Part shown: positions 47,226 through 64,000 of the stretch, in pieces
Layout: each line of letters opens with the position of its first letter
Position numbering within the stretch: position 1 is the stretch's first letter
Source of the DNA: Fibrobacter succinogenes
GTDB taxonomy: Bacteria; Fibrobacterota; Fibrobacteria; Fibrobacterales; Fibrobacteraceae
Direction of reading: 5' to 3'
Assembly (NCBI GenBank): GCA_902800815.1
Contig: CADCGB010000004.1
Span: forward strand, 62,001 to 126,000
DNA length: 64,000 nucleotides
Made by a program: the position numbers and the translations under genes
Notes under the pieces: generated by a model
What the model saw: the letters and a program-made list of their open reading frames with translations, nothing else
What the model was told of the DNA's origin: nothing
Databases searched by the model: none

Positions 47226-50200
47226 CTACCTGTTGTCAAGTTCTAGTAAAAGGGAATCCAGACGCTGAGTGTAGATCTCGGCACCCTTATCGCAAAGGTG
47301 CTGCGAGTCTTCGTTCATTCCACCGGCGTAGTCGTGGTCGCCCCCCTTGTTTTCGTCGAACAGAACAAAATTCGAATACGTACTTTCCATCTGAACGAAT
47401 TCGTTGATTAGAGAATCAGCTATACTGCGCTTCATACCCAAGTAACCAAACATCGTGGAAGTCTTGTATGCAGGAGACTGGGGGAGGATTGTCCCGATGA
47501 CGGTTACACCTCGTTTGGCTGACTCTTCAATGATGGTCTTTAGGGAATTCATAGAGCCGGCGAGGATTTCTTGTCCAGGGTCGCTAACGGCCGCTCCATA
47601 GTTTGCTCCTGGCCACGATTTGGAGCATGACGTTTGCAATTGACCTCTGTATTCGATAATGTTGTCGCAACGACTTGGCGACGGATAGAGTATACCTTCT
47701 TTCGCTGCCTCGTATAAAGGTGTAATATCTTCTTCACCTGCCCAGTAATTGTGATTCTTGTCGTATACAAATCCGGGGTACAACAGGTATTTTGCATTGG
47801 CGTCGTTGTCAGCGAACCAGTTGTCATCTTTGGCAGACGGTGTCTTCCACCAAAAATCCAAATCGAGAGAAACAACCAAGTACTTCATTTTCTTGTAGTG
47901 GGGCATTATGTACTTCATCAAGATGTCCTTTGACATATGGATTGTGCATGATGCAAGACCTAAGTTCACCCCTATGAATTTGCTGTTAAGTTTTGTTGGG
48001 TAAACCGCGTTTAGAGGGCGAGAAGACCCTATGACAACCACGTTGGCGGAATCGGCAAACTGCCACAAGAGCTCCATCTTGTACCGTATAATGAAGTCTT
48101 TGAACTGCGTGTAGCTTTTTACGTATATTCCTGCGCTGTCGGGGTCCAGGACCAGGCCGTATTCGTTAGAAGAACTTACTGGGTTGATCTCGCCAGAGGA
48201 ACTTATGGGAATAATCTCACTTGAAGAACTTGTCGAGACTATCTCGCTTGAAGAACTTATGAGGTCTATCGCGCTTGAAGAACTGGTTCCAATAGATTCG
48301 CTCGAAGAACTAGATTCAATATTCTCGCTTGAAGAACTCGTTTGGACGCTTACGCTGGATGAGGTTGCTATGGGCGTTTCGCTTGATGAACTGGATTCAA
48401 TAGAATCACTGGAAGATAGAATGCTACTGGAAGAACTGCTTTTTGCGACAGCAGGCGTAGAAGGCTCTACCCAAAGAACCGGATGCCATAATTCATCGCT
48501 TTCTACAAGTTCAACAATCTTTTTCGATTCCATGTCTATTAGGACGATCTTTTTGTGGGTCCCGTTTTGGTCCGTAAGTGTTGCCACCGCCGCATTCTTG
48601 CCGGCCACCCATTCCGTATGATCATAGGAATAGCCTGTCGGAGAAGCGACTGCGTCCACTAAATTTCCGTTGCTATCCATTACAAGGATTTGTTCATGAG
48701 TCCTGTATTTTTGGCCGACAAACTTTTGGCCTGTAGAACTTCCGAAATCAAGGAATAAAGTCCGGTTTGAACCATCGCTGGCAAGGGAAACGTTGCAGGC
48801 CTGCTCGTTATTGTACCATACGTCGTATTTCACCTTGTCAATGTCGTTCCAGGTGGCAACGCGCAAAAGCTTTGAGCCGGTTACAGCAAGCCCATCTGTT
48901 ACGCCTCCGTTAAAACTTCCCTTTAGCAATAGCCGGGGCGTGCCGAACCTCCCGCCTGCGAAAGGTACAATCCAAGTGCTGTATCCTGCCCAGGTCAAGG
49001 AATCCTTGTTGCTTCCTGCGTCAGATACATACACTAAGACGGTGTCGCCGGTTTCCAATACCCTAAATCGCGGTATGGCGGCATTTTCTACGGGGAGTTC
49101 CACCTTTTCGGAACATGCGGAATCCAAGCGGCAAACATAAACTTTTGATTCTCCGGATAGGCCTTCAATTTTGGTGCTGAACGCGACATAATTGCCATCG
49201 GGCGATATGTCTGGGTGGAATGCGCTTACATCGTCTTCAATTTCAATTGCCCTAGAAGCATTCCTGGCGTAATCTATAAACGTCAGTTTCCCGGAAACAT
49301 CGTTTCTAAATACGAGTTTCGCCTTTGCTCTTCTGGCGTTTAAAGTCCCTAAAATAGATTCTATGGTAGCCACGATGTTTATCTTGACCGTATTCACATG
49401 TCCGGATGGATCCAGCCAAATTGGTTTGTCGATGGCTCCAAGCACTAATCTGAAGCCTACATAATCGGCGCTAGAATTCATCGCAATGGGGTACACATCC
49501 CGACGAGTGTTGATGTTGATGTCGTTGGGGGACAATCGACAGTTTCCGCCCTTTATCATGTTTTCTTTTAAACTGTTGGGAGCGGAGGCGCCAACATAGT
49601 TTGTCAGTGTGGTATCTTTAAAGTCTGCAAGCCATCCATCTACCCATTCAGCAACATTTCCGGTCATATTGCAGACGATATCTGGATCTTCTTCAAGTTT
49701 GACGTGCGAACTGTCTGATCCGGGGGTGGAACAAACCTCGTGAGGCTCTGATGATGAATTGTCTGCATTCCAGGAATTGTCGACATCCCAGAATTTTTTT
49801 GCGACATACACCCATTCGGCCTCTGTTGGTAATCGGTAGCCAGGCACTTCGTAGTGAGTGGCCAATCCTTCAAGAAATGCGCAACTTCCCGAGGGGGTGA
49901 AGCTGGAACTTACATAGGTATATACGGTGTCGCGCCCTTCGCTTTTACTTAATGCGTTTGCGTACAAAACGGCATCGTAGAAATTAACATTGACTTGGGG
50001 GAGTTTCTTTTCGTTTTCCGGAACATCGCCACCCATGAGTGCGGCGTACTGTTCCCTAGTCACTTCGGTGCGGCTAATGTAGAAGTCGTAATCCAGTTGG
50101 ACCGTCATCGTAACGTTAGACTCGTCTGAGGCGTCTGTCAAAGATACCGTTTTTGGACCTTTCTGCTTTACAAAACCTTCTATGGAGTATTCTATTTCTT

Positions 50201-50369
50201 CGGAGGAACTGGATGATTCGGGCTCTGTTACAGCATTCTCGGAGGAACTGGAGAATTCCGGTTCTTCTTCGAAATCGATATCGCTTTCACTAGATTCGCT
50301 ATTGGAACAACTCGTCCAGAGACCGAATGCCAGCAACCAGATAATACAGAAAAAAAGTTTCTTTTTCAT
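47226..50369 (-). CDS. Large lipoprotein resembling the Fibrobacter paralogous family TIGR02171: FGE-like domain, beta-propeller, poly-Ser linker, SGNH-like domain
   Basis: A 1047-aa lipoprotein. The signal peptide ends in the lipobox LWTSC (Cys about 21), followed by an acidic Ser-rich spacer. Residues about 70-330 form a formylglycine-generating-enzyme/sulfatase-modifying-like domain (YRLPTEAEWVYVAKK, CNMTGNVAEWVDGW, IKGGNCRL, YVGFRLVLG). About 340-640 resembles a TolB/WD40-type propeller (HPDISPDGNYVAFST). A linker of SSSSE-type repeats follows (about 648-735). The last 300 residues contain VVVIGSSRPLNAV and EDSQHLCDKGAEIY, reminiscent of SGNH hydrolase blocks I and V. Family assignment is from memory of the architecture. 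Probably surface-exposed; the substrate is unknown. Confidence 0.8.
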   Translation of the reverse strand: MKKKLFFCIIWLLAFGLWTSCSNSESSESDIDFEEEPEFSSSSENAVTEPESSSSSEEIEYSIEGFVKQKGPKTVSLTDASDESNVTMTVQLDYDFYISRTEVTREQYAALMGGDVPENEKKLPQVNVNFYDAVLYANALSKSEGRDTVYTYVSSSFTPSGSCAFLEGLATHYEVPGYRLPTEAEWVYVAKKFWDVDNSWNADNSSSEPHEVCSTPGSDSSHVKLEEDPDIVCNMTGNVAEWVDGWLADFKDTTLTNYVGASAPNSLKENMIKGGNCRLSPNDININTRRDVYPIAMNSSADYVGFRLVLGAIDKPIWLDPSGHVNTVKINIVATIESILGTLNARRAKAKLVFRNDVSGKLTFIDYARNASRAIEIEDDVSAFHPDISPDGNYVAFSTKIEGLSGESKVYVCRLDSACSEKVELPVENAAIPRFRVLETGDTVLVYVSDAGSNKDSLTWAGYSTWIVPFAGGRFGTPRLLLKGSFNGGVTDGLAVTGSKLLRVATWNDIDKVKYDVWYNNEQACNVSLASDGSNRTLFLDFGSSTGQKFVGQKYRTHEQILVMDSNGNLVDAVASPTGYSYDHTEWVAGKNAAVATLTDQNGTHKKIVLIDMESKKIVELVESDELWHPVLWVEPSTPAVAKSSSSSSILSSSDSIESSSSSETPIATSSSVSVQTSSSSENIESSSSSESIGTSSSSAIDLISSSSEIVSTSSSSEIIPISSSGEINPVSSSNEYGLVLDPDSAGIYVKSYTQFKDFIIRYKMELLWQFADSANVVVIGSSRPLNAVYPTKLNSKFIGVNLGLASCTIHMSKDILMKYIMPHYKKMKYLVVSLDLDFWWKTPSAKDDNWFADNDANAKYLLYPGFVYDKNHNYWAGEEDITPLYEAAKEGILYPSPSRCDNIIEYRGQLQTSCSKSWPGANYGAAVSDPGQEILAGSMNSLKTIIEESAKRGVTVIGTILPQSPAYKTSTMFGYLGMKRSIADSLINEFVQMESTYSNFVLFDENKGGDHDYAGGMNEDSQHLCDKGAEIYTQRLDSLLLELDNR

Positions 50370-50988: not shown

Positions 50989-51966
50989 ATGAAGATTTTT
51001 GGCCGCCATACGAGGATTTTTGCCATTTTGCTGCTTTCAGCGTTCTCGTTTTCGTTCTCTCTCGGGTTCGATGCGAGCGTCAAGCAGGGCTTCCGCTATG
51101 GCCCGAACCTTTCGTGGAGCGTTATGGGGAACGCCCCCTTCGTGTGGGGGCAGTGGCTCCCGCAGCTGGAGGGTACGGTCCGCTACACGTGGCTGGAGCC
51201 TATCGGGCTGCTCGACTACGGTGCGCCGATGGATAAGTCGCCTACATTCCTCAGGATGGAAGGTGCTGTTGAACTTTCCCCGTTCTTTGCGGGTTACGAG
51301 GCCGGTCTCGGGCTGCGCCCCTTCAAGACCAACCCGCAGGTGGAGGTCGGGGCAATCTACCGCAGCTACCTTTACCTGCTGAGCAACCAGGAAATGGTGA
51401 CGGTCGATGCCCTAGAGGGCGGGCGAATCGCCGAGACCTGGAATGCGGACTACATCGTGGACAACGTATGGGGTGACGATGACGAGTTCGACTATGCGCA
51501 GTTGTTTGACTTCTACGTAAAGATTGAGTACTTCTTGCCGCGCTACTCGTTTATCGGGTTCAATATGCACTATATCCTCTCCGATATCAGCACGGACTTC
51601 GATGGCAAGAGTTACGACTACAAGATTAACATGCCGATTTTCAGCCGCGACTTTGTGCTGGATTTCGAACTATACGGGATGTTCTCTATCAACAAGAACA
51701 TTGCTGCCTTGTTCGAGACATCGTACTACCGCACCGGTACGCTCCGGAACGGCAACACGGTGGAAAAGGAATCGCTCAGTTACATGATGGCGAAGGTAGG
51801 CCCGCACTTTACGTGGGCCGACGGCATGCAGAGTCTGACGTTTGAGATAGGATTCTGGAAGCGTAGGGAAGACAGCTTCTACGATGGCAGCCTTGCCCAG
51901 GAATTCATTGCCCAGCTTAAGTACCAGGGCTACTTCTCGTTCCCGATCCACCAGAAGGCCTTGTAG
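50989..51966 (+). CDS. Exported outer-membrane beta-barrel-like protein
   Basis: A 325-aa protein with a signal peptide (about 1-26, ending FSFSLG) and about a dozen alternating amphipathic strands rich in Tyr, Phe and Trp, typical of an outer-membrane barrel. I know no family for it. It overlaps the 3' end of the converging gene at 51930-52670 by 37 bp. Confidence 0.75.
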   Translation: MKIFGRHTRIFAILLLSAFSFSFSLGFDASVKQGFRYGPNLSWSVMGNAPFVWGQWLPQLEGTVRYTWLEPIGLLDYGAPMDKSPTFLRMEGAVELSPFFAGYEAGLGLRPFKTNPQVEVGAIYRSYLYLLSNQEMVTVDALEGGRIAETWNADYIVDNVWGDDDEFDYAQLFDFYVKIEYFLPRYSFIGFNMHYILSDISTDFDGKSYDYKINMPIFSRDFVLDFELYGMFSINKNIAALFETSYYRTGTLRNGNTVEKESLSYMMAKVGPHFTWADGMQSLTFEIGFWKRREDSFYDGSLAQEFIAQLKYQGYFSFPIHQKAL

Positions 51967-52670
51967 TCGTGGCCTGATTTCAGGATATTTTCGCGCAGGG
52001 GGTCCGTGTCGATTTCTTCGACGGGGTAGACCGAGCGCACCCAGATTTTTCCGCGGTAGTTGAGACCCGCGACCGTGATGAGCGAGGGTAGCTTGATTCC
52101 CGAGAAATCCTTCCAGTCGTCTATGCGCAGTTCGCGTTTCTCTTTTGCGGCACCCCGCATGGTAATCAGGTGCGGGTTGGTAAGCGAGTCCAGCGTGACG
52201 CTCCACCACATATTGGAGTATGCGGGCGAAAGGATGTTCGGCTTCTGCACGCTCGAGTCCTTGCACATGAAGTACCCGTGGGCGAGGAGCTCGAGATCGT
52301 CGTACTTGACGGGCGTGTTCGCGATGTCCTCTTTCAGGTGGTGCATCGCCATCTGCCGTTTAATCTTGGGCTCGGAAAATTCGAGGTACCTGCCGGTCTT
52401 GCTCGTGATGTACTTGAAGGAGGGCTTGTTCGGGATATGGACAAAGAAGGTGTCCAGTTCCTTGAATTCGTGATGGCGCCACTCCAGGTCTATCCTTGCG
52501 CGGGAATGTTCCGGGTTGATGAACCACCCTTCCAGGTTCACGATCATGTCACGGTCGAGCAGCTTGTGTGGGCACAGGTCCTGCGCGTATGCCGCGGTGG
52601 CAAACGAGGCCAGCAATACGGCGGTGCAGGTGCACTTGGCTACATGGAAAGCTTTTTCGAACATGGTCAT
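51930..52670 (-). CDS. Periplasmic or secreted protein of unknown function
   Basis: A 246-aa protein with a signal peptide (about 1-29, AAYAQ). Four cysteines and several His residues are visible but no known motif. The codons ATG ACC ATG give two possible starts, 52670 or 52664. Its 3' end overlaps the barrel gene on the other strand, so both transcripts must run into each other unless terminated inside coding sequence. Confidence 0.7.
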   Translation of the reverse strand: MTMFEKAFHVAKCTCTAVLLASFATAAYAQDLCPHKLLDRDMIVNLEGWFINPEHSRARIDLEWRHHEFKELDTFFVHIPNKPSFKYITSKTGRYLEFSEPKIKRQMAMHHLKEDIANTPVKYDDLELLAHGYFMCKDSSVQKPNILSPAYSNMWWSVTLDSLTNPHLITMRGAAKEKRELRIDDWKDFSGIKLPSLITVAGLNYRGKIWVRSVYPVEEIDTDPLRENILKSGHDYKAFWWIGNEK

Positions 52671-52869: not shown

Positions 52870-55800
52870 ATGAAAAAGATCTTCGCCCCGCTTGCCATTG
52901 CTGCCGTGTTCTTTGCGGCCTGTGGCGATACGGTCGAAAATGTGAGCCAAATAAACCATATGGGCATGGATATTGTCGATTCCGAAGACGAACTCCCGGA
53001 ATGTACCGACGAAAACGAGGGCGACCAGGCCTACGTGAAGGGCGAAACCTATGCACGGCTTTGCGTGGATGGGAAGTGGCTTGCTATAGAGGGCGGTAAA
53101 GACACCATTGTGGTCGCGGGCGATACGGTTTTCCTGGGCGGCGGTGATTTCTCGTGCAAAACGGAGGAACTTGCCGACAAGAGCGGGCTCAAGATTGTCT
53201 GCAATGGCGACAGCATTGGCGTGGTGCTTAATGGGACGAATGGCGAAGACGGCAAAAAGGGCGAGGAAGGCGACGGCTGCACCATTACGCAGAACGACAC
53301 CGCGGTGACGGTTACCTGTGGCGACAAGACCTCGACCATCAAGCTGGGCGCCGAAACGCCCGCCGATACTTCGGTAACGGACACGAGCGATTCCGAGGTG
53401 TCGCTCGATTCGCTGGCCGGTTACTCGCAAAAGGGCCCGTTCCTCAAGGGCTCGAGAGTGTTCTTGTACGAACTGGACAACGGCCGTACGTTAAAGCAGA
53501 CCAACGGCAACTTTACCAGCTACATTACAAGCGATAACGGCCGCTACAAGTTCACGTCGCGCAACGTGAGGCCGTATGCGATTATCATTGTCGACGGTAA
53601 CTACCGCAACGAGGTCACGGGCGCGGTCTCGGACCAGTCCATAAGGCTCCAGGCCCTGTGCGATGTGCGCAAACACCGCAGCGATGGCGCAAACGTGAAC
53701 ATTCTCACGCACATGGAATACGAGCGCGTGTATTACCTGGTGACCCAGAAGGGCTACGACTTTGAAGAGGCCAAGCAGACTGCGCAGGCAGATGTGCTGA
53801 AGGCGTTCCACATTGAACTCGATGCCACAAAAGATGCAGAGTCGCTCAATATTTTTGGCAAGACCGATGCCGATGCGGCGCTGCTCGCCATTTCTGTGCT
53901 GCTGCAGGGCGACCTCAGCGTGCCCGACATGATGGTGCTGCTGACCGAAATTTCGAACGAGCTGGCCGAGGACGGCGAGTGGAGCGACACGACGGGCAGG
54001 GCCGCCACCCTCAAGGCAAGCATTGCCGACTGGGTACTGTCCGCGGATTCCGCCGGCCGACTAGCCCAGATTGGCCCGAATGTGACGGCGTGGGGCTTTG
54101 GCGAGGCTCCCGATTTTGAAAAGTTTGTGCACAAGTTTGCAAAAATCGAAAGCGGCCTTGGGGACTGCGACAAGGATAGCGTAGGGCGCGTAAAGGCCGT
54201 GCCGAACCCGAAGTCGAACGCTTTCTATGCAAAGACCTATACCGACACCTCCCGTAATGTTCCTACCCGTAAGGTCCGCTTTATTTGCAAGGATCTTGCT
54301 GGCGAATATAAGTGGCAGGTCGCCTCGAACATCGAAAAAGACACGCTTACCTGGGGCCATACGGCTACGAAAGGCTCCGTGCGCAGGGGGCAGATCAATG
54401 CAGACCTGGTCTACGTTTATGAGGATGACAACTGGCGCCACGGAACTGTTTTGGACGACACTGCCGGCGTAGGCTGTATCCTGACCAGCGCAGATACCGT
54501 GGTGAAGGGCTCCAACAACGTCTGGTACAAGTGCATTGGCGATACTACAATGCAGTATGCCGCAAATGGCCTGACTGAATCGGCATGGAAAAGTTCCTGG
54601 CGCAAGGCGAACAATATCGAAAGAGATACCGTGGGCTTTGGGCATACTGCCAAAAATGGCGATGTAAGGAAGGGCGCGGACAATACGGACTTGGTCTACG
54701 TTTATGAAGAAGGCAACTGGCGTCACGGAACTGTCTTGGACGACACTGCTGGCGTAGGCTGTATCCTGGCCAGCGCAGATACCGTGGTGAAGGGCTCCAA
54801 CAACGTCTGGTACAAGTGCATTGGCGATACTACAATGCAGTATGCCGCAAATGGCCTGACCGAATCGGCATGGCGCAGCGCATGGCGCACGGCGAGCGAA
54901 ATCGAAAGAGATACCGTGGGCTTTGGGCATACCGCCAAAGAAGGCGACGTAAGGGTGGGCGCGGACAATACGGACTTGGTCTACGTTTATGAAAACGGCA
55001 ACTGGCGCCACGGGGACGTAATGGATGGTTTAATCGGTAAAGGCTGTTTCGAGGGCCGCAAAGATACCCTGGTGCAATTTGAAGAAAATAAGTGGTTCAA
55101 ATGCATTGGCGATACCCCAATGCAGTATGTCGCGAATGGCCAGATCGAATCGACATGGGAACACGCATGGCGCAGTATAGACGGCGATGAACTGGACTTG
55201 AGTTTCTGGATGTATTACAAGAATGAACGAGGTGAGTTCGTGGTCGGGCCCTATAGCGGGGGAATTCGGGTGTGGGATAACGGCCAATTCCGCGAACCCA
55301 ACGAACATGAAATCGAACTGGGCAGGGCTTGCGTAAGCTACATACTTCACGCATCGTATGAATTGTCTGACGGGTTGTCTCACTCTTGCGTTTCCAGCGG
55401 GGCCTGGTCCAGAGAAGGCACGTTCCAGGATGACCGGTACCCGTACGACTTCTACTGGGCGGTGCATATCGGAGATCAGATTTGGATGGCCGAAAACCTG
55501 AAATACGTTACGGAAAATAGTGTGTGTCTTGGTGGTGCTTCTCCAGATTGTGCAACGCATGGTCGAGGCTATACGATTGCGGAAGCTCGGAAAAACTGCC
55601 CCACGGGTTGGCACCTGCCCGATACCACGGAATGGAATGAACTGTTTGATTTCGTGGACAAAGAAGGTCGCAGACCGATTGTTGCTCTTAGGGCAACCTG
55701 GGGTTGGGAAGGTAGCGCCGGTAACGAAGGTACCGATGATTACGGTTTCTCGGCGCTTCCCAGCGTAAGTGGAACCAGTTATACATATTTCTGGACCGAT

Positions 55801-55938
55801 ACATTTGCTTCAAACGGTGTATTTGCTGTGTATATGACTACATATGGTGGCGGGGTGTCTTTTGGCCAATATGCTTCGTCATCTAAAATGGCGGTCCGTT
55901 GCCTAAAGGACCGTGCTCCCACATCAGGAAATAATTGA
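52870..55938 (+). CDS. FISUMP-domain lipoprotein 1, with three 95-aa modules
   Basis: A 1022-aa lipoprotein (lipobox FFAAC). A shared N-terminal domain has Cys-rich ELADKSGLKIVCNGDSIGVVL and a short collagen-like Gly stretch (NGTNGEDGKKGEEGDG). Next is a domain with YSQKGPFLKGSRVFLYELDNG at about 184-204 and a helical region with the NILTHMEYERVYYLVTQKGY motif. Three tandem 95-aa modules (about 491-585, 586-680, 681-775), each containing LVYVYE-xxNWRHG and KCIGDT, precede the C-terminal FISUMP domain (IGDQIWMAENLKY, CPTGWHLPDTTEWNELF, YGFSALP, MAVRCLKD). An AAGGAG ribosome site lies before ATG 52870. First of four tandem paralogues; function unknown, probably cell-surface binding. Confidence 0.88.
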   Translation: MKKIFAPLAIAAVFFAACGDTVENVSQINHMGMDIVDSEDELPECTDENEGDQAYVKGETYARLCVDGKWLAIEGGKDTIVVAGDTVFLGGGDFSCKTEELADKSGLKIVCNGDSIGVVLNGTNGEDGKKGEEGDGCTITQNDTAVTVTCGDKTSTIKLGAETPADTSVTDTSDSEVSLDSLAGYSQKGPFLKGSRVFLYELDNGRTLKQTNGNFTSYITSDNGRYKFTSRNVRPYAIIIVDGNYRNEVTGAVSDQSIRLQALCDVRKHRSDGANVNILTHMEYERVYYLVTQKGYDFEEAKQTAQADVLKAFHIELDATKDAESLNIFGKTDADAALLAISVLLQGDLSVPDMMVLLTEISNELAEDGEWSDTTGRAATLKASIADWVLSADSAGRLAQIGPNVTAWGFGEAPDFEKFVHKFAKIESGLGDCDKDSVGRVKAVPNPKSNAFYAKTYTDTSRNVPTRKVRFICKDLAGEYKWQVASNIEKDTLTWGHTATKGSVRRGQINADLVYVYEDDNWRHGTVLDDTAGVGCILTSADTVVKGSNNVWYKCIGDTTMQYAANGLTESAWKSSWRKANNIERDTVGFGHTAKNGDVRKGADNTDLVYVYEEGNWRHGTVLDDTAGVGCILASADTVVKGSNNVWYKCIGDTTMQYAANGLTESAWRSAWRTASEIERDTVGFGHTAKEGDVRVGADNTDLVYVYENGNWRHGDVMDGLIGKGCFEGRKDTLVQFEENKWFKCIGDTPMQYVANGQIESTWEHAWRSIDGDELDLSFWMYYKNERGEFVVGPYSGGIRVWDNGQFREPNEHEIELGRACVSYILHASYELSDGLSHSCVSSGAWSREGTFQDDRYPYDFYWAVHIGDQIWMAENLKYVTENSVCLGGASPDCATHGRGYTIAEARKNCPTGWHLPDTTEWNELFDFVDKEGRRPIVALRATWGWEGSAGNEGTDDYGFSALPSVSGTSYTYFWTDTFASNGVFAVYMTTYGGGVSFGQYASSSKMAVRCLKDRAPTSGNN
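54340..55194 (+). repeat. Three tandem 285-bp units inside lipoprotein 1
   Basis: Units begin at 54340, 54625 and 54910, exactly 285 bp apart. Units 1 and 2 are nearly identical in their second halves (for instance the block around GGCGTAGGCTGTATCCTG), while unit 3 diverges after RHG. The pattern shows recent duplication within an older module array. Confidence 0.88.
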
Positions 55939-55959
55939 TTTTAGAATTTTGAGGTTGAA

Positions 55960-58900
55960 ATGAAACGTTTTGCGTATCTTCTGACTGCTGTTCCCGTAAT
56001 GATGGCCCTTGAGGCCTGCAGTAATATTACAGAAGACTTGTCCATAAACCAGGCGGGCGTGGAAGTTGTCGCCTTTGAAGACGAACTCCCGGAATGCACC
56101 GACGAAAACGAGGACCGCCAAGTTCTTGTGCTGGGTGAATCTTTTGCGCGCATCTGCGTAGATGGCGAGTGGCTTGCCGTAGAGGATGACGGTGATTTTT
56201 CTTGCGAAATGGTGGAACTTGCCGACAAGAGCGGTCTCAAGATAGTCTGTAACGGCGATAGCATTGGCGTGGCGCTGAACGACGTAATCGGCTCTGGCTG
56301 CACCTTGGCACAGTATGCTTCTTCCGCCGTGGCGGTCACCTGCGGTGACAGCACGGCGGTATACAAACTAGGTACCGATGGGTCTTCCGCCGACGCTTCG
56401 GTAACGGACTTGGACGAATCTGAGGTCTCGCTCGACTCGTTGACGGGTTACTCGCAAAAAGGGCCGTTCCTCAAGGGCTCTAGAGTGTTCTTGTACGAAC
56501 TGGACAACGGCAAAACGCTGAAGCAGACCAACGGTAACTTTACCAGCTACATTACAACCGATAACGGCCGCTACAAGTTCACGTCGCGTAACGTGAGGCC
56601 GTATGCGATTATCATTGTCGACGGCTTCTACCGCAACGAGGTTACGGGCACGGCCTCGGACCAGTCCATAAGACTCCAGGCCCTGTGCGATGTGCGCAAG
56701 CACCGCAGCGACGGCGCGAACGTGAACATTCTCACGCACATGGAATACGAACGCGTGTATTACCTGGTGACTCAGAAAGGCTACAACTTTGATGATGCTA
56801 AGAAGACCGCGCAAAAGGAAGTGTTCAAGGCATTCGGGATTGAACTCAGTGAAACTAAAGATGCTGAATCGCTCAATGTTTTTGGTACGTCGGAAGGCGA
56901 TGCAGCACTGCTTGCCATTTCGGTGCTGGTGCAGAGCAACCTCAGCGTGCCCGACATGATGGTGTTGCTGACCGAAATCTCGAATGAAATGGCCGAAGAC
57001 GGCGAATGGAGCGACACGATGGGCAATGCGGAGTCACTCAAGGCTCGCATTGCTGACTGGGCGATGGAAACAGATAATTCGGGTGAACTTGATGATATTT
57101 ATAACCATGTGGCGGCCTGGAATCTGGGCCCGGTACCCTATTTCCAAGATTATGTGCGCGATTATTGGCGCAAAATCTATGGTCTTGAAGTATGCACGGA
57201 CGATCTTGAGGGGGTTGTCGTTGGGACGGAGAATTATGCGAGCAGTTATAGCATGCTCAGTCCAACCCGTTTTATCTGTGAATCGGGTAGGTGGCGAGTC
57301 GCTTCGGACTTACAAAAGGATACTTACAAATGGGGCAGATGTGATGAAGGCGAAATTCGTGATGGCTCTATTACCGGGGAAAAATACATTTGCGTTGAAA
57401 AGGAAGGCTCTTGGAGGGGTGCCTACGATGTGGAAATAGCCTTAGGAGGTTGTACCGCGGCTATCGAAAAAGACGATTCCAAGAATGCGGGTTATTTTGA
57501 TGAAAATTGGTATATATGCAAAAACCGCATTTGGGAAATTTCGGACGATGTGACTGTCGATACGCGTGCATTCCCCGCGGGCAGTGATGGCGCTATTGCA
57601 GAAGGGGCCATCACCCATGCAAAATACAAGTATGACGAAGTTTTGGGTGCTTGGACGCATATTTCTGAGGCCGATACGTCCACGGCTATTGGCCTGTTTG
57701 TCTGTACAAATAAACATGTTGGAGAATATCATTGGGGCAAGGATGATGTGTACTACATGTGCGATAATAGCCCTGATGTGGTCCAATGGCGAATCACCAC
57801 CGATTTTGAGCGCGATACCGAAGGTGCCGTATGCGATGCTGCAAATGTTGGCAAGGTCATTCACGGGGTTGTGCAGGCGACAAACATGTATTATTGTACC
57901 GAATCGGGCTGGAAAAGTATGATGGATGATGAATGGAATTGGAGTATCCCGAAAGAGGCTCGCCTGAATCCGGACTTTACCGGTTACGATACGATAATCG
58001 ATGGCCGTGATGGGCAAAGTTACAAGATAGTGACTATTGGCGAACAAGTTTGGATGGCCGAAAACTTGAATTACCAGGTAAGCGGCAGCAGGTGCTACGA
58101 CGATGTTGCCGAGCATTGCAATGTGGCGGGACGCCTTTATACCTGGGCCATAGCGGTTGGTAAGTCGGAAAAAGAATGCGGTCAATCTCGTACCTGTAAC
58201 TTGACCCTTCCGGTGCAGGGCGTGTGCCCCGATGGTTGGCACCTGCCGAGTGCGGATGAGTGGCAAACCCTTGTTGATTATGTCGGAACTAGAGTTATTG
58301 CTGGTTTCGGTCTTAAATCCTTGTCTGGTTGGATTCAGAATGGGAATGGAATTGATTCCGTCGGGTTTAGTGCGTTACCTGCAGGCAACATGAACACTGC
58401 TGGGGAGTTTGATTATGATGGACACGCCGCTTTCTTCTGGACTAGTACGGAAAGTGCAATTGGTGCGCTAGAATATGCAATGGAATTTTCACACAAGGAG
58501 GTGGTAAGCAATCATTACTCCAAGATTAACGCGATGTCTGTCCGTTGTGTAAAGAACAGCAAAACCTCTTCTAACCCAGAAGGAAATGGTGGTTCTGACC
58601 CAGAAGGCAACGGCGGCTCCGACCCAGAAGGAAATGGTGGTTCTGACCCAGAAGGCAACGGCGGCTCTGACCCTGAAGGAAATGGTGGTTCTGACCCAGA
58701 AGGCAACGGTGGCTCCGACCCAGAAGGCAACGGCGGCTCTGATCCTGAAGGAAATGGTGGTTCTGACCCTGAAGGTAACGGCGGCTCTGATCCTGAAGGA
58801 AATGGTGGTTCTGACCCAGAAGGCAACGGTGGTTCCGACCCAGAAGGCAACGGTGGTTCCGATCCTGAGGGAAACGGTGGTTCTGACCCAGAAGGCAACG

Positions 58901-59406
58901 GTGGTTCCGACCCAGAAGGCAACGGTGGTTCCGATCCTGAGGGAAACGGTAGCTCTGATCCCGGCGAGAACGGCGGGTCTGATCCTGAAGGCAACGGCGG
59001 TTCCGACCCTGAAGGAAATGGTGGATCCGATCCTGAAGGCAACGGTGGCTCCGACCCAGAAGGCAACGGCGGCTCTGATCCTGAAGGAAATGGTGGTTCT
59101 GACCCAGAAGGCAACGGTGGTTCCGATCCTGAAGGCAACGGCGGCTCTGATCCCGGCGAGAACGGCGGGTCTGATCCTGAAGGAAATGGTGGTTCTGACC
59201 CAGAAGGCAACGGTGGTTCCGACCCAGAAGGCAACGGCGGCTCTGACCCTGAAGGAAATGGTGGTTCTGACCCAGAAGGCAACGGTGGCTCTGACCCTGA
59301 AGGCAACGGCGGTTCCGACCCAGAAGGAAATGGCGGTTCCGATCCTGAGGGAAACGGTAGCTCTGATCCCGGCGAGAACGGCGGGTCCGATTCTGAAGGC
59401 AACTGA
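55960..59406 (+). CDS. FISUMP-domain lipoprotein 2, with a 278-residue octapeptide-repeat tail
   Basis: A 1148-aa lipoprotein (lipobox ALEAC). Its N-terminal 370 residues match lipoprotein 1, including YSQKGPFLKGSRVFLYELDNG and NILTHMEYERVYYLV. The middle part is divergent. The FISUMP domain occupies about 677-868 (IGEQVWMAENLNY, CPDGWHLPSADEWQTLV, FWTSTES, MSVRCVKN). From residue 871 to the end there are 34 octapeptides SDPEGNGG, with variants SDPGENGG and GSSDPGEN, then SDSEGN. The tail is acidic, Gly-rich and flexible, and has no aromatic or basic residues. Ca binding or a brush-like spacer is a guess. It follows lipoprotein 1 after 21 bp. Confidence 0.88.
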   Translation: MKRFAYLLTAVPVMMALEACSNITEDLSINQAGVEVVAFEDELPECTDENEDRQVLVLGESFARICVDGEWLAVEDDGDFSCEMVELADKSGLKIVCNGDSIGVALNDVIGSGCTLAQYASSAVAVTCGDSTAVYKLGTDGSSADASVTDLDESEVSLDSLTGYSQKGPFLKGSRVFLYELDNGKTLKQTNGNFTSYITTDNGRYKFTSRNVRPYAIIIVDGFYRNEVTGTASDQSIRLQALCDVRKHRSDGANVNILTHMEYERVYYLVTQKGYNFDDAKKTAQKEVFKAFGIELSETKDAESLNVFGTSEGDAALLAISVLVQSNLSVPDMMVLLTEISNEMAEDGEWSDTMGNAESLKARIADWAMETDNSGELDDIYNHVAAWNLGPVPYFQDYVRDYWRKIYGLEVCTDDLEGVVVGTENYASSYSMLSPTRFICESGRWRVASDLQKDTYKWGRCDEGEIRDGSITGEKYICVEKEGSWRGAYDVEIALGGCTAAIEKDDSKNAGYFDENWYICKNRIWEISDDVTVDTRAFPAGSDGAIAEGAITHAKYKYDEVLGAWTHISEADTSTAIGLFVCTNKHVGEYHWGKDDVYYMCDNSPDVVQWRITTDFERDTEGAVCDAANVGKVIHGVVQATNMYYCTESGWKSMMDDEWNWSIPKEARLNPDFTGYDTIIDGRDGQSYKIVTIGEQVWMAENLNYQVSGSRCYDDVAEHCNVAGRLYTWAIAVGKSEKECGQSRTCNLTLPVQGVCPDGWHLPSADEWQTLVDYVGTRVIAGFGLKSLSGWIQNGNGIDSVGFSALPAGNMNTAGEFDYDGHAAFFWTSTESAIGALEYAMEFSHKEVVSNHYSKINAMSVRCVKNSKTSSNPEGNGGSDPEGNGGSDPEGNGGSDPEGNGGSDPEGNGGSDPEGNGGSDPEGNGGSDPEGNGGSDPEGNGGSDPEGNGGSDPEGNGGSDPEGNGGSDPEGNGGSDPEGNGGSDPEGNGGSDPEGNGSSDPGENGGSDPEGNGGSDPEGNGGSDPEGNGGSDPEGNGGSDPEGNGGSDPEGNGGSDPEGNGGSDPGENGGSDPEGNGGSDPEGNGGSDPEGNGGSDPEGNGGSDPEGNGGSDPEGNGGSDPEGNGGSDPEGNGSSDPGENGGSDSEGN
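58570..59403 (+). repeat. 24-bp tandem repeat encoding SDPEGNGG, 34 units
   Basis: 834 bp of 24-base units. Third positions vary (GAC/GAT, CCA/CCT, GGT/GGC) in patterns that recur over longer distances. The block encoding GNGSSDPGENGG, for instance, appears at about 58935-58980 and 59345-59390, which suggests duplication of multi-unit blocks. Because the period is a multiple of three and stop-free, other frames also stay open here. Confidence 0.97.
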
Positions 59407-59427
59407 TTGTATAAATAGGAGAACGTT

Positions 59428-60015
59428 ATGAATCGCTTTGCATGTCTTCTGGCTGCCGCTACTGCATTGTTTTTCCTTGCGGCTTGCGGTGATACGGAAA
59501 ACTTCACGCAGATAAACCAGACTGGCGTGGATGTCTATGCCTCTGCAGACGACCTCCCGGAATGCACCGACGAGAACGAGGGCGACCAGGCGTTTGTGAA
59601 AGGGGAGGCGTCTGCGCGGCTTTGCGTGGACGGCGAGTGGTTTGTAACTGACCGCAGCTCGGCAAAAGATACGATTGTGCTTGCCGGCGACACCATTTAC
59701 TTGGGTGGCGGGGATTTTTCGTGCAAGACGGAGGAACTTGCCGACAAGAGTGGCCTCAAGATAGTCTGTAACGGCGATAGCATCGGCGTGGTGCTGAACG
59801 GTGCAAAGGGCGAAGACGGCAAAAAAGGCGATGCGGGCTGCACTATTTCGCAGAACGACACCGCGTTGACCGTTACCTGTGGCGACAGCACGACGACAGT
59901 TAAGCTGGGCACCGGTAAGCCGGCCGCCGACACTACGGTAAATGATACTAGCGACGCCGCCGCGATAACGGCAAGTCCCTCAAGCAGACCAACGGCAACT
60001 TTACGAGTTACATAA
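59428..60015 (+). pseudogene. FISUMP lipoprotein 3, 5' fragment before a frameshift
   Basis: A 195-codon frame with lipobox FLAAC and the shared N-terminal domain (DDLPECTDENEGDQAF, ELADKSGLKIVCNGDSIGVVL, a short collagen-like NGAKGEDGKKGDAG). It reads in register to DTSDAA at 59961, then shifts. The correct continuation, GAT AAC GGC AAG..., lies in the frame of the next feature. The domain QKGPFLKGSRVFLYEL seen in lipoproteins 1 and 2 is missing at the junction. The frame ends in TAATG, overlapping the start of the second part by one base. TAGGAG lies upstream of the ATG. Confidence 0.85.
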
Positions 60016-61877
60016 TGAATGATAAAGGCTATTACAAGTTCACGACGCGTAAGGTAAACCCGTATGCACTTGTTATTGTGGACGGTAACTACCGCAACGA
60101 GGTGACGGGCGCGGTATCGGCCCAAACCATTAGGCTCAAGGCACTGAGCGACGTGCGCAAGCACCACAAGGGCGCGAATGTGAATATCCTCACGCACCTG
60201 GAATACGAACGCGTGTATTACCTGGTGACAAAGATGGACTACGACTTTGATGAGGCCAAGCAGAAAGCGCAAGAAGAAGTATTCCGTGCTTTCAATATCG
60301 TTCTCGAGTCGAGTGAAGATGCCGAAACACTCGATATATTTGGCAAGACCGAAGCCGATGCTGCACTCCTTGCGCTCTCTATCATGTTGCAGGGTGACCG
60401 CAGCGAAGCTGAAATGATGGCGCTCCTGACTGAAATCTCGAACGCCCTTGCCGAAGAGGGCGTGTGGAATGATTCTTCTGCCAGGGCGCAGGTCGCCCTC
60501 TGGGCTGCAGTTGCCGATGGCCAGGGCCGTCTGGATACGTTTGCCAATCACGTAAAGGGCTGGGGCCTGGGCGACGGGACGGTTCCTCCGTTCGAAAAAT
60601 ACGTCCGTAATTTCTATGCCCAAGAAACAGGATTGGGTGCATGTGGCGCCGACGGAGCCTCCCAGGGCACAAAGAAAACGCTAAAGGCGGGTTCGGATAC
60701 GTTTAATTTTGTCTGTGAAGATGTCGAGAAGGGCTGGTGGCGCTTGCTGACCAAACTTGACCTCGATACTGCGGGTTGGGGACATGATTTTGAAGAGGGC
60801 GCTGTCCGCAATGGCCAGGTGAATACTGACCTGGTTTACGTATACGAGAATAACAACTGGCGCCATGGAACATCGCTCGACAGTATCCTCGGTTTGAGTT
60901 GCATCCAAGCACGTAAAGATACCTTGGTGCAGGTATCTGTTCTAGATTGGTACAAGTGCGTTGGTGATACCGCTGTGTCGTTCGAGGAATCGAATTGGAA
61001 TAGTGTTTGGCGCAGGGCGACAGACATGGAACTTGATTCGAATTATTGGCTGAGCAACAAATTGGGCAACGAGGAAGGCGCGCTATTGAAAGGTCCCTAT
61101 ACTGGAAAGATTTTGGTATGGGATAACGATAAACTTAGGGAACCGACAGAAACCGAAATCGGATGGAACAAGGCTTGCGTAAAGTCTGCGTATGGCAAGG
61201 TCGACACTTTGTCAAATGGGCTGGGGTACACTTGCAGTGCTGCCGGATGGTCGGCAACGGGGAAGTTCAAAGACAATCGGGACTATCCAGCTCAAATCTA
61301 TAAAGGCGTGAAGATTGGATCGCAAACTTGGATGGCCGAAAACCTGAACGTTGCATATAAAGTGAAAAGCGGATTTTACCGCACTGATACCAGCGGATTC
61401 TGCTATAAAAACATATGGACCAACTGTCAGAAGTACGGCCGTCTTTATCCATGGAGCGCCGCTATGGATTCTGCGGGCATTTATACTACGGCGAATAATT
61501 GTGGTGATGGTACTTTTTGTAAGGCGTCTACTCCTGTGCGAGGCATATGCCCCTATGGGTGGCACTTGCCCTCTACCGAGGAATGGAGAGAACTTTTTGT
61601 GACTGTGGGCGGGAAGAAAAAAGCCGCGAAACTTCTCAAATCTCAGACGGATGGTTGGGGAGGACTAGATGAATATTCCTTTTCTGCGTTACCGGCCGGT
61701 ATCAGAGATGATGCAGGTTACGAATTGGAGGGCACATTGACTAGTTTCTGGACCTCTACCGAAGAGGATATGGAAAATGCTGTTAGTGTGGATATGAGTG
61801 ATGAGAGAGATAGCGTACTTTTTGATTATGTCTCTGATAAGTTCGCGGCGTACTCCATCCGCTGCGTCAAGGACTAA
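60015..61877 (+). CDS. FISUMP lipoprotein 3, 3' part, startable at ATG 60015
   Basis: A 620-aa frame that continues the broken gene. It contains KGYYKFTTRKVNPYALVIVDGNYRN, the NILTHLEYERVYYLVTKMDY helical region, one 95-aa-type module (LVYVYENNNWRHG) and a C-terminal FISUMP domain (IGSQTWMAENLNV, CPYGWHLPSTEEWRELF, YSFSALPAG, YSIRCVKD). Translated from ATG 60015 it would have no signal peptide and stay in the cytoplasm. The TAATG junction could allow coupled reinitiation, or ribosomal or polymerase slippage could restore a full-length lipoprotein. Otherwise the gene is inactive. Confidence 0.8.
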   Translation: MNDKGYYKFTTRKVNPYALVIVDGNYRNEVTGAVSAQTIRLKALSDVRKHHKGANVNILTHLEYERVYYLVTKMDYDFDEAKQKAQEEVFRAFNIVLESSEDAETLDIFGKTEADAALLALSIMLQGDRSEAEMMALLTEISNALAEEGVWNDSSARAQVALWAAVADGQGRLDTFANHVKGWGLGDGTVPPFEKYVRNFYAQETGLGACGADGASQGTKKTLKAGSDTFNFVCEDVEKGWWRLLTKLDLDTAGWGHDFEEGAVRNGQVNTDLVYVYENNNWRHGTSLDSILGLSCIQARKDTLVQVSVLDWYKCVGDTAVSFEESNWNSVWRRATDMELDSNYWLSNKLGNEEGALLKGPYTGKILVWDNDKLREPTETEIGWNKACVKSAYGKVDTLSNGLGYTCSAAGWSATGKFKDNRDYPAQIYKGVKIGSQTWMAENLNVAYKVKSGFYRTDTSGFCYKNIWTNCQKYGRLYPWSAAMDSAGIYTTANNCGDGTFCKASTPVRGICPYGWHLPSTEEWRELFVTVGGKKKAAKLLKSQTDGWGGLDEYSFSALPAGIRDDAGYELEGTLTSFWTSTEEDMENAVSVDMSDERDSVLFDYVSDKFAAYSIRCVKD

Positions 61878-61887
61878 GTGAGGTAAC

Positions 61888-64000
61888 ATGAAACACCTTT
61901 CTTTAAATATTATCTCCGCGTTTGTGGCGGCATTCCTCCTCACTGCTTGCGGTGATACGGAAAACTTCACGCAGATAAACCAGACTGGTGTGGATGTCTA
62001 TGCCTCTGCAGACGACCTCCCGGAATGTACCGACGAGAACGAGGGCGACCAGGCCTATGTGAAGGGCGAAACCTCCGCGCGGCTTTGCGTGGATGGCGAG
62101 TGGTTTGTAACTGACCGCAGTTCGGCAAAAGATACGGTTTATGTGGGTGGCGACAAGCTCAACTGCACCACCGAGGAACTTGCCGACAAGAGCGGTCTCA
62201 AGATAGTCTGTAACGGCGACAGCATCGGCGTGGTGCTGAATGGCGCGAAGGGCGAAGACGGCAAAAAGGGCGATGATGGCGATAATGGCTCCGGTTGCAC
62301 TATTTCGCAGAACGACACCACGTTGACCGTTACCTGTGGCGACAGCACGACGACAGTTAAGCTGGGCACCGGTAAGCCGGCCGCCGACACTACGGTAAAT
62401 GATACTAGCGACGCCGCCGACGGCAAGTCCCTCAAGCAGACAAACGGCAATTTTACAAGCTACATAACAAATGATGAAGGCTACTACAAGTTCACGTCGC
62501 GTAAGGTAAACCCGTATGCACTTGTTATTGTGGACGGCAATTACCGTAACGAGGTGACGGGCGTGGTGTCTGCGCAGTCTATTAAACTTAAGGCGTTGAG
62601 CGACGTGCGCAAGCACCATACGGGTGCGAACGTGAATATCCTCACGCATCTGGAATACGAACGCGTGTATTACCTGGTGACAAAGATGGACTACGGCTTT
62701 GACGAGGCCAAGCAGAAAGCGCAAGAAGAAATTTTCCGGGCTTTCAACATGGTCATTGAATCGGATAAAGATGCCGAAACGCTCAATATATTTGGCAAGA
62801 CCGATGCCGATGCTGCGCTCCTTGCGCTCTCTATCTTGTTGCAGGGCGACCGCAATGAAGCTGATATGATGGCGCTGCTGACCGAAATCTCGAATGATTT
62901 GGCTCAAGACGGATCGTGGGACGACTCGGTGACGAGAACTAAGCTTGCGGACTGGGCTTTGCAGGCGGATAGCGATAAAATGCTAGAAAAGTTCCGCGAG
63001 AATGTGAAAAAATGGCGCTTGGGCGGCGACTCGACGGTGCCCAACTTCGAGAAGTTCATTCGCAATTATGTGAATGCCGAAACTCACCTTGGTGCTTGTG
63101 CCGAGGGCAACAAGAAAGCGTTCGCGCATGTGCCCAATCCAAGGTCCAAGTACTATGCCGAAAATTACGATAGTATTGACGTTTCTTCGAATAGCCTTGC
63201 TCGCGTTATTTGCGATTCCGTGGGGGACTACCATTGGCGTTTTGCGACGGCGTTGGAAAGGGATACGAAGGATTTCGATGCAGATGAAGATGGAACCTGG
63301 AAAAAGGGAAAAATTGACACGAGTTTGGTTTATGTTTACGATGCCGGTTGGCGCCATGGAACAGAACTGGATTTGTTCCTTGATTTGGGCTGTACGGAAA
63401 ACCGTAAGGGAAACATGGTATTAGGCGGAGATAATGTTTGGTATATATGCACGGATGTCCCTAAAATGACGTATGAAAACACAAGCTGGACTGTCGGGTG
63501 GCGCGTTGCCACTGGTGCCGAAAGGGATTATACCTATCTGGAAACGGAAAAGGATGAAGATGGAACCCTTTTGACCGGGCCTGTTACCGGAAAAGTGATG
63601 GTGTGGGATGCCGACGCGTTTAGAGAAGCGAGCGAGAATGAAATTGAGTTCGGCAGGGGTTGCGTGAGTTACATTCTTGGCAGTAGCGATACCTTGGGGC
63701 TACACTCCTCTTACACTTGCTGGGCGGATGGGTGGTCTTTTGACTCGGCGAATGTGATAACAGATCCGCGTGATGGCCATGTCTACAAAACTGTTAAAAT
63801 AGGGAATCTGTATTGGATGGCCCAAAATCTTAATTTCACTTATGATATCGTTACTGCAGACGTGTTTAGTGGTATGGATAGGCATAATGTTTTGAGCAAA
63901 TGCTATTATAAGGGATCTACAAATAACGATACCTGTGCTAAATATGGACAGTTTTATCCGTGGTCTGCTGCTATGGATAGCGCAGCCTTGTTCTCGGATG
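61888..64000 (+). CDS. FISUMP-domain lipoprotein 4 (cut by window edge)
   Basis: At least 704 codons, running off the right edge. AGTGAGG precedes ATG 61888. Lipobox LLTAC; N-terminal domain nearly identical to lipoprotein 3, with a short collagen-like NGAKGEDGKKGDDGDNGSG. At 62410-62420 it joins DTSDAA directly to DGKSLKQTNGNF in frame, where lipoprotein 3 has five extra bases. It then has NILTHLEYERVYYLVTKMDY, 95-aa-type modules (LVYVYDAGWRHG) and the beginning of a FISUMP domain (IGNLYWMAQNLNF, KYGQFYPWSAAMDS). It starts 10 bp after lipoprotein 3, so all four are probably one transcript. Confidence 0.88.
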   Translation, partial: MKHLSLNIISAFVAAFLLTACGDTENFTQINQTGVDVYASADDLPECTDENEGDQAYVKGETSARLCVDGEWFVTDRSSAKDTVYVGGDKLNCTTEELADKSGLKIVCNGDSIGVVLNGAKGEDGKKGDDGDNGSGCTISQNDTTLTVTCGDSTTTVKLGTGKPAADTTVNDTSDAADGKSLKQTNGNFTSYITNDEGYYKFTSRKVNPYALVIVDGNYRNEVTGVVSAQSIKLKALSDVRKHHTGANVNILTHLEYERVYYLVTKMDYGFDEAKQKAQEEIFRAFNMVIESDKDAETLNIFGKTDADAALLALSILLQGDRNEADMMALLTEISNDLAQDGSWDDSVTRTKLADWALQADSDKMLEKFRENVKKWRLGGDSTVPNFEKFIRNYVNAETHLGACAEGNKKAFAHVPNPRSKYYAENYDSIDVSSNSLARVICDSVGDYHWRFATALERDTKDFDADEDGTWKKGKIDTSLVYVYDAGWRHGTELDLFLDLGCTENRKGNMVLGGDNVWYICTDVPKMTYENTSWTVGWRVATGAERDYTYLETEKDEDGTLLTGPVTGKVMVWDADAFREASENEIEFGRGCVSYILGSSDTLGLHSSYTCWADGWSFDSANVITDPRDGHVYKTVKIGNLYWMAQNLNFTYDIVTADVFSGMDRHNVLSKCYYKGSTNNDTCAKYGQFYPWSAAMDSAALFSD

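Follow-up and report, generated by a model that had tools for sequence, protein, structure and literature searches.

Why would a bacterium keep, side by side, a set of long lipoproteins that share one end and differ in their middle modules and tips? We addressed this question in a 64,000-nucleotide stretch of Fibrobacter succinogenes DNA (assembly GCA_902800815.1, contig CADCGB010000004.1, positions 62,001 to 126,000 of the forward strand; this whole stretch is hereafter the window), the last part of which encodes four such proteins, G1 to G4, each with a C-terminal FISUMP domain. A preliminary description, made from the letters alone, had seen here a locus that diversifies surface proteins. 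Our best explanation, to which we give a probability of roughly two in three, is that the cluster encodes a surface recognition repertoire, diversified here via duplication, deletion and recombination and, in relatives, also by diversity-generating retroelements (DGRs).

Results

Four modular FISUMP lipoproteins form one array

The window is part of contig 4 in a draft genome of 3.15 Mb (G000; 64 contigs, 92.9% complete). Searches with profiles that we built from the window copies give a family architecture of NLP (a lipobox, Cys-rich stretches and a short Gly-x-y stretch), GPF (a domain with a QKGP motif), 0-6 MOD repeats and FISUMP; below, the NLP-GPF-MOD part is called the platform and FISUMP the head. 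All four genes are on the + strand in the order G1-G2-G3-G4, and the open reading frame coordinates bear out the reported spacers of 21, 21 and 10 bp. G1 (52870-55938, 1022 aa) is an NLP-GPF-4x MOD-FISUMP lipoprotein and G2 (55960-59406, 1148 aa) has three MOD copies and a repeat tail after FISUMP. G3 is split into a first frame (59428-60015) that encodes a signal peptide and NLP and stops at a frameshift, and a second (60015-61877) that encodes GPF without its N-terminal part, two MOD copies and FISUMP. G4 (NLP-GPF-2x MOD-FISUMP, with an in-frame deletion in GPF) starts at 61888, is still open at the window end (64000) and truly ends at window-equivalent position 64395, 395 bp further on, for a length of 835 aa.

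The preliminary description had also proposed a shared N-terminal lipoprotein domain, a C-terminal FISUMP domain, middle modules that vary in number, a module duplication, a repeat tail, a deletion and a frameshift, all of which we recovered. A lipobox-like signal is visible by eye at the start of all four proteins, and TIGR02145 matches each of them (E 1.4e-35 for G1, 1.5e-56 for G2, 3.4e-45 for G3 and 2.4e-16 for the window-truncated G4). G1-G3 exceed the curated cut-offs of both TIGR02145 and PF09603, and truncated G4 that of TIGR02145 only. The heads match PF09603 at 55462-55908 in G1 (residues 865-1013), 58030-58554 in G2 (residues 691-865) and 61308-61871 in G3. The duplicated module of G1 (54396-55013) has a TRF period of 285 bp, with 2.2 copies and 90% matches, and the acidic GSDPEGNG repeat tail of G2 (58570-59366) consists of 24-bp-based TRF units; its matches to MSCRAMM models fall far under their cut-offs. 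The QKGP motif is invariant across a 30-row alignment (A1) that has neither G3 nor G4 among its rows, and this stretch is deleted in both genes, with junctions 5 bp apart. G4 stays in frame and G3 does not, and G3 is therefore probably not made as one protein. The two genes share 86% DNA identity across 984 bp, the 5' half of G3. The platform matches no Pfam family above cut-off, and in a Pfam search none of the four proteins showed a catalytic domain. The array is one of several in G000, which totals 147 FISUMP and 37 platform matches (one gene can give several).

The array belongs to a recurrent barrel-lipoprotein module

The cluster is wider than first stated, as the block goes on past the window. 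After G4 come barrel546 (window-equivalent 64554-66194), a gene for a predicted OmpA-like barrel outer-membrane protein, and FIS284 (66207-67061), which encodes a short FISUMP lipoprotein. The gap between G4 and barrel546 holds a signal-peptide start followed by an out-of-frame acidic C-terminal tail (13395-13554 of L009, our stretch holding the array), probably the remnant of a fifth array gene. Beyond FIS284 lie recA-like and cinA-like genes, named by eye, and then x358 (DUF5683).

We further investigated how often such a barrel comes with such lipoproteins, using 29 distinct barrel546 homologues above 45% identity, a subset of the barrel matches in the genus; the loci were mostly chosen for their barrel (L009, L012, L070 and L082 were chosen for other reasons). 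A platform lipoprotein lay within 10 kb on the same strand for 25 of these 29 barrels and on the opposite strand for none, and a FISUMP lipoprotein followed at most 1.2 kb downstream of 26. Above 55% identity, 25 of 26 barrels had a platform gene. Fibrobacter metagenome-assembled genomes (fore-stomach of sheep and water buffalo, horse faeces and others) are the source of all 18 named loci with a barrel homologue, which places the window in this genus. As part of the explanation given above, and with the same probability, the window cluster would be a single instance of a surface module that recurs in Fibrobacter. Among the 25 genomes searched for platforms, the highest number of matches (91, where one gene can give several) was found in G020 (L070-L077, L084), and these fall mostly into one lineage-specific clade.

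The site of the array is occupied differently among relatives. At the left block edge stands flank246 (51930-52670, - strand), a conserved backbone gene that has no Pfam match and is present in 58 of 61 genus genomes. When the sibling genome G033 (87-93% DNA identity) was aligned, the alignment ended near the flank246 5' end and restarted just beyond the recA-like 3' end, with an interval of about 144 bp against 14,491 bp in G000: a block of about 14.5 kb is missing from the sibling. Both flank246 and x358 were found on one contig in 45 of the 58 genomes (on separate contigs in 9; x358 not found in 4), and their gap measures 1,971-2,888 bp in 43 of these 45, 5,926 bp in G048 and 16,415 bp in G000. 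The G048 gap (L125 2434-8286) holds three other frames, of 512, 330 and 388 aa, beside the recA-like gene, so the chromosomal slot may be a general insertion site. In the distant genome G020 (flank246 50%), this left edge is likewise occupied by an array of the family, divergently arranged as in G000 and accompanied by barrel and FIS284; x358 sits on a different contig there, so the right edge is not seen together with the array. G064 is the closest relative by x358 (96%); its contig begins some 1 kb short of that gene, and no flank246 and no closely matching G1 DNA was found in this genome, which leaves it outside the 45 genomes that bear on the site. We also considered an integrative mobile island and did not retain it: there is no tRNA in L009 and no direct repeat shared by the block edges, whose sole common word is 9 bp in inverted orientation; integrase genes were not searched for.

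Models suggest lectin-like heads and an OmpA-like barrel

We then turned to structure models, for which the fold calls rest on VIA comparison. In the AlphaFold model of G1 (mean predicted local distance difference test score, pLDDT, 74), nearly all fold matches of residues 847-1017 are C-type-lectin or related folds. The best are the tip of Bd2740 (Z 8.2; 98 residues, 3.0 A) and Mtd (Z 8.0; 128 residues, 3.5 A), followed by formylglycine-generating enzyme (FGE; Z 7.5) and many C-type lectins at Z 5-8. A Z near 8 is middling, and it is the agreement of the matches that carries a predicted C-type-lectin-like fold for the FISUMP head. Foldseek alone gave no match under 1e-3 for the G1 or barrel model, and the G1 sequence none at E <= 1 against solved structures. 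The GPF domain of the G1 model also matches the PgcA non-heme domain (Z 11.0), from which we draw no function.

For the barrel, a model was built on a 78%-identical homologue of barrel546 (whole-model pLDDT 64). Its residues 442-589 match OprF (Z 13.7), OmpA (Z 13.1) and NspA (within Z 13-14), which suggests that barrel546 carries an OmpA-like eight-strand transmembrane barrel. No Pfam family matches barrel546 at E <= 1, hence there is no match to an OmpA-type peptidoglycan-binding domain.

Homologous modules in related Fibrobacter are DGR targets

Because of the lectin-like head fold, and because Fib_succ_major is among published DGR target domains, we searched the genus for reverse transcriptases (RTs). 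This gave 28 RVT_1 matches in 18 of 80 genomes, and we examined 22 of the 28 loci for pairs of template region (TR) and variable region (VR). Pairs with mismatches at TR adenines were found at 18 of the 22, without exception to the adenine rule in 14 and with one exception each in L176, L184, L194 and L195. No pair was found at L178, L181 and L190, and an apparent pair at L183 was an artefact of masked bases and was not counted. Pairs biased to one letter were found at the 22 RT loci in numbers of A 12, T 12, C 4 and G 3, and at 32 other loci without RT in numbers of A 3, T 4, C 2 and G 4. All eight RT frames read carry IGNLTSQ and YVDDM, the former of which may mark RTs of DGR type; library models name generic RTs only, below cut-offs in NCBIfam.

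Of the 18 targets, 13 are FISUMP proteins: in 12 the target frame contains a tblastn match, and that of L176 is recognised by TIGR02145, which matches the targets of L120, L121, L176, L177 and L192 with E 5.4e-45 or lower in all five. The modules at L120, L121, L176 and L177 are of the window's kind, and their target gene is the one for the platform-FISUMP lipoprotein, placed after the barrel546 and FIS284 homologues. The VR is located in the FISUMP head and the DGR lies just downstream of the target gene. The mismatches fall at TR adenines in 28 of 28 cases for L120, 27 of 27 for L177, 18 of 18 for L121 and 21 of 22 for L176. A fifth target, at L192, is a platform lipoprotein with 30 of 30 mismatches at adenines and no barrel in its 15-kb stretch. 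The L121 target is a full-length G1 homologue (36% over 867 aa), and its alignment runs through the end of G1 that corresponds to the VR (55744-55911, placed by motif position); the equivalent regions are 58363-58557 in G2 and 61677-61874 in G3.

Two of these loci are close relatives of the other two (L120 with L177, L121 with L176), so the four count as two cases. Within each pair the TRs are identical (0 differences over 180 bases for L177/L120 and over 140 bases for L121/L176), and the VRs differ at 23 positions, 23 of them at TR adenines, and at 21 positions, 20 of them at TR adenines, respectively; the rest of the target gene has 84-90% DNA identity. Identical templates with VR differences at adenine sites argue that these DGRs are active or were so recently. 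Altogether, read from the assemblies, homologues of the same architecture are DGR targets, which is a relation at the level of the family.

Two observations concern DGRs of the genus in general. At L189, L191, L193, L194 and L195 (G039, G028, G019, G075 and G047) the VRs lie in proteins with other C-terminal ends, such as ...AVALLTL, in stretches without a FISUMP match; these form a second target class for the DGRs of the genus. At L187 (G011:C36) tandem FISUMP stretches match one template region, with A bias, at three places, and one DGR may there serve several variable regions.

Platforms and heads are decoupled in several arrays

We compared the evolution of platform and head, starting with a GPF tree (88 rows, a quick method with SH-aLRT support only and several long branches). 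All four window platforms fall into a single clade (95) and 20 of the 22 G020 rows into another (83), and the contig-1 array of G000 is orthologous in order with G064 (four genes) and with the distant G050 (three genes). A lone platform gene with an in-frame stop in G000 (L085, G000:C2:188693-190141), apparently a pseudogene, stands near the window array on a long branch. In a FISUMP tree of 103 rows, with few well-supported branches, four label changes are required to account for the window heads, whose nearest rows sit in other parts of the tree.

Identities were then drawn from the 75 genes with both GPF and FISUMP. Eight within-locus pairs have GPF of at least 84%, and their FISUMP identity is 40-62% in seven and 83% in the eighth. 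Five cross-genome pairs have GPF of at least 94%, with FISUMP of at least 93% in four and 41% in one. Near-identical platforms with 40-51% heads occur at n099, n095, n104, n106 and n097 and in one G020 array, whereas the 1:1 orthologues of G000 and G064 (three genes) have platforms of 94-98% and heads of 93-97%. For the orthologues of G000 and G050 the GPF values are 83/76/71% and the FISUMP values 66/61/51%. In the first gene of the contig-1 array, compared between G000 (L012/L092) and G050 (L081), the last ~58 residues of the head, equivalent to the VR, have 38% identity and the rest 73%.

At the DNA level, identity in the n099, n095 and G033 pairs falls from ~80-98% to ~40-50% within one or two 90-bp bins, and the upstream DNA of these pairs and of G3/G4 is only 28-40% identical; so abrupt a drop together with diverged upstream DNA fits internal conversion tracts. 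The drop between G3 and G4 sits inside the GPF domain. L101 and L106 appear as a reverse mosaic, in which a tract with the head is alike and its surroundings diverged. The common tract covers the head and runs 0.3 kb into the next gene, and 14 of its 940 columns are mismatched; identity is 72-83% before it and, after it, 72% in one window, 97-100% for ~0.24 kb and then 73-90%, in genomes whose DNA is 82% identical around flank246 and ~88-91% beside the array. A single-breakpoint test fires on the window pairs (0 of 500 shuffles). It also fires on two of three orthologue controls and, being unspecific, carries no weight. Taken together, the platform/head decoupling in the other arrays is consistent with recombination.

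By eye, a 1047-aa protein elsewhere in the window (47226-50369) resembles an FGE-sulfatase at its start and a beta-propeller in its middle, with linkers rich in Ser.

Discussion

The explanation that we prefer starts from what is read in the assemblies: how the genes are ordered and built, that the module recurs, that the sibling lacks the block and that DGRs act on homologues. A module would combine an OmpA-like eight-strand barrel protein with one short FISUMP lipoprotein and several long ones, each of the latter built from a lipid-anchored platform (NLP and GPF), MOD spacers and a C-terminal lectin-like FISUMP head. The head would be presented on the cell surface by the platform, whose membrane partner would be the barrel, and the heads may bind plant or host glycans, other cells or phage. 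In G000 the repertoire would have arisen from tandem duplication, deletion and recombination that kept platforms alike and let heads differ, and in some relatives the same tip appears to be rewritten by a DGR as well. The wider claim, that the FISUMP expansion as a whole is a recognition repertoire of lectin heads on lipid-anchored stalks with an OmpA-like partner, renewed by recombination (also across species) and by DGRs, is one that we hold with as much doubt as belief. The earlier idea of a locus that diversifies surface proteins gains from the absence of the block in G033 and in 43 of 45 genomes, from the decoupling and from the DGR-targeted homologues; nothing in our data shows switching within this strain. 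For the window array we did not find an identical, slowly evolving organisation in distant strains.

Several results weigh against this explanation. The contig-1 array of the same genome is stable, keeping its order and 1:1 orthologues in G064 and in distant G050, so not every array is fast. Four of the 29 barrels have no platform gene nearby. Decoupling in the window itself is moderate (GPF 77-78% and FISUMP 40-43% for the two closest pairs), and the cross-genome pairs at GPF 80-91% are mixed, some with heads of 66-98% and more with heads of 40-48%. The supported branches of the 103-row FISUMP tree force no more than one origin of the window heads, and an approximately unbiased (AU) test does not reject a single clade for them (p 0.204) on a set of 36 rows, from which 13 rows with long or remote heads, picked by name pattern, and those of the named loci, G033 and G050 had been left out; phylogenetic proof of head swapping within the window was thus not obtained. 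The clean L121 count covers 144 bp; the rest of the repeat aligns in another register, where 10 of 20 mismatches are at TR adenines. All data come from draft assemblies, in which chimeric joins are possible, and surface location, expression, ligands, the role of the barrel and recombination in the window array are what we infer.

The search for a DGR in the window genome itself adds to these points. Neither an RT nearby nor a template was found for the window locus, which does not look like a DGR cassette. There is no RVT_1 match in G000, at 92.9% completeness, the scan of 50 G000 loci for templates stayed at background level (A 3, T 2, C 4 and G 1 loci), and a template-translation query of G000 returned ordinary FISUMP frames only. 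Three biased-pair matches in L009 lie between the G3 and G4 platforms and within the repeat tail, none at the 3' end of a head. Codon bias was examined in motif-fitting heads (38 in G000, the four window heads and 7 of 12 DGR targets): NNY codons are not in excess in the VR-equivalent loops of the window (58/105 against 171/298), nor overall in G000 (610/1046 against 1516/2631). This test is weak, since real DGR targets reach only 148/203 against 340/523; six named-locus heads, a set that includes possible DGR targets, do show an excess (131/177 against 230/404).

These results bear on the idea that a G000 ancestor had RT and template here and that G1-G4 are its stranded former targets. The homologous modules, with a DGR just downstream of the target gene, and the decay of the array, with its frameshift, shared deletion and fifth-copy remnant, speak for it. 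We nevertheless consider such a degenerating DGR locus very improbable, given the missing template trace in G000, the missing codon excess in the window heads and the lack of any RT match in G033, G064 or G020; a fossil DGR in the window found no support in the template search or in the weak codon test. A cellulosome-like scaffold, in which FISUMP would be a cohesin analogue or cellulose-binding module that gathers or anchors plant-polymer enzymes, has been suggested in print: the portion of PMC4704652 available to us gives 17-119 FISUMP copies in Fibrobacteres genomes except C. alkaliphilus and suggests a cellulose-binding or cohesin-like role, and that of PMC4619616 reports one FISUMP protein in the cell-envelope proteome on both cellulose substrates and not on glucose. 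The lack of a catalytic domain in the four proteins, the predicted C-type-lectin-like fold of the head and DGR-hypermutated heads in homologues, which suit variable ligands better than a fixed docking face, make this reading improbable.

Ordinary paralogue expansion, with tandem duplication and a FISUMP domain that evolves faster than the platform, would need neither recombination nor a diversification system. It is compatible with the AU result and with orthologue heads that diverge somewhat faster than GPF between G000 and G050, but it sits poorly with near-identical platforms carrying 40-51% heads when the G000/G064 orthologues keep heads of 93-97%, with a G3/G4 identity drop that lies inside GPF and is accompanied by diverged upstream DNA, and with the L101/L106 tract between otherwise diverged genomes. 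We regard it as rather unlikely. If the preferred explanation, a repertoire of variable lectin-like heads, is right, the surface of a major gut degrader of plant fibre is shaped by an arms race or by the tracking of ligands, in parallel with the tips of phages and predators, and fibre adhesion and phage resistance become testable at named residues.

Comparison with known systems

As far as the literature searched goes, the module of barrel and lipoproteins, the fact that one fixed site holds it in some genomes and not in others, the decoupling of platform and head and the action of DGRs on these lipoproteins in Fibrobacter are new. The abundance of FISUMP with its guessed role (PMC4704652) and the domain as a DGR target (PMC4159848) are already in print in the parts of these papers available to us. 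The second of these lists Fib_succ_major, with 9 proteins, and also FGE-sulfatase among DGR target domains in human microbiomes, and the accessible portion of PMC8144416 reports that annotatable DGR target regions have C-type-lectin folds. DGR targets in Fibrobacter lipoproteins are not described in the literature searched, including the accessible portions of PMC8144416, PMC11080232, PMC7495880 and PMC4159848.

All four window heads match the FISUMP/Fib_succ_major family (TIGR02145, PF09603), for which the literature searched held no tested function; the window proteins differ from the bare family in their NLP-GPF-MOD platform and in the linked barrel, neither of which has a Pfam family above cut-off. 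Variable lipoproteins of DGRs are the nearer likeness. Legionella has a DGR lipoprotein with a C-type-lectin head that is similarly lipid-anchored and variable. The human-gut lipoprotein with Mfa2 and Fib_succ_major domains, as presented in the part of PMC4159848 at hand, shares with the window proteins a lipid anchor and a C-terminal lectin-fold head, and with their Fibrobacter homologues the DGR. The difference is that no RT or template was found in G000 and that diversity is spread over a tandem array. Legionella Lcl (Lcl_C/DUF1566) is more remote: Lcl_C (PF07603) gives weak matches to the heads of G2 and G3 (E 5e-5 and 0.003; 23.9 and 18.3 bits, below the 34.9 cut-off), which leaves them outside the Lcl type, and two of the DGR homologues weakly match collagen-like adhesin models, below curated cut-offs, whereas the window proteins have a short Gly-x-y stretch only, by eye. 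The chimeric fibre (MAT) proteins of Bdellovibrio, such as Bd2740 (in the portion of PMC10769870 available), likewise combine a common stalk with varied C-terminal tips, and the C-type-lectin tip of Bd2740 is the best match of the G1 head, compared by fold and not by sequence. In contrast to these fibres, the window proteins look like lipoproteins and vary their tips within one domain family.

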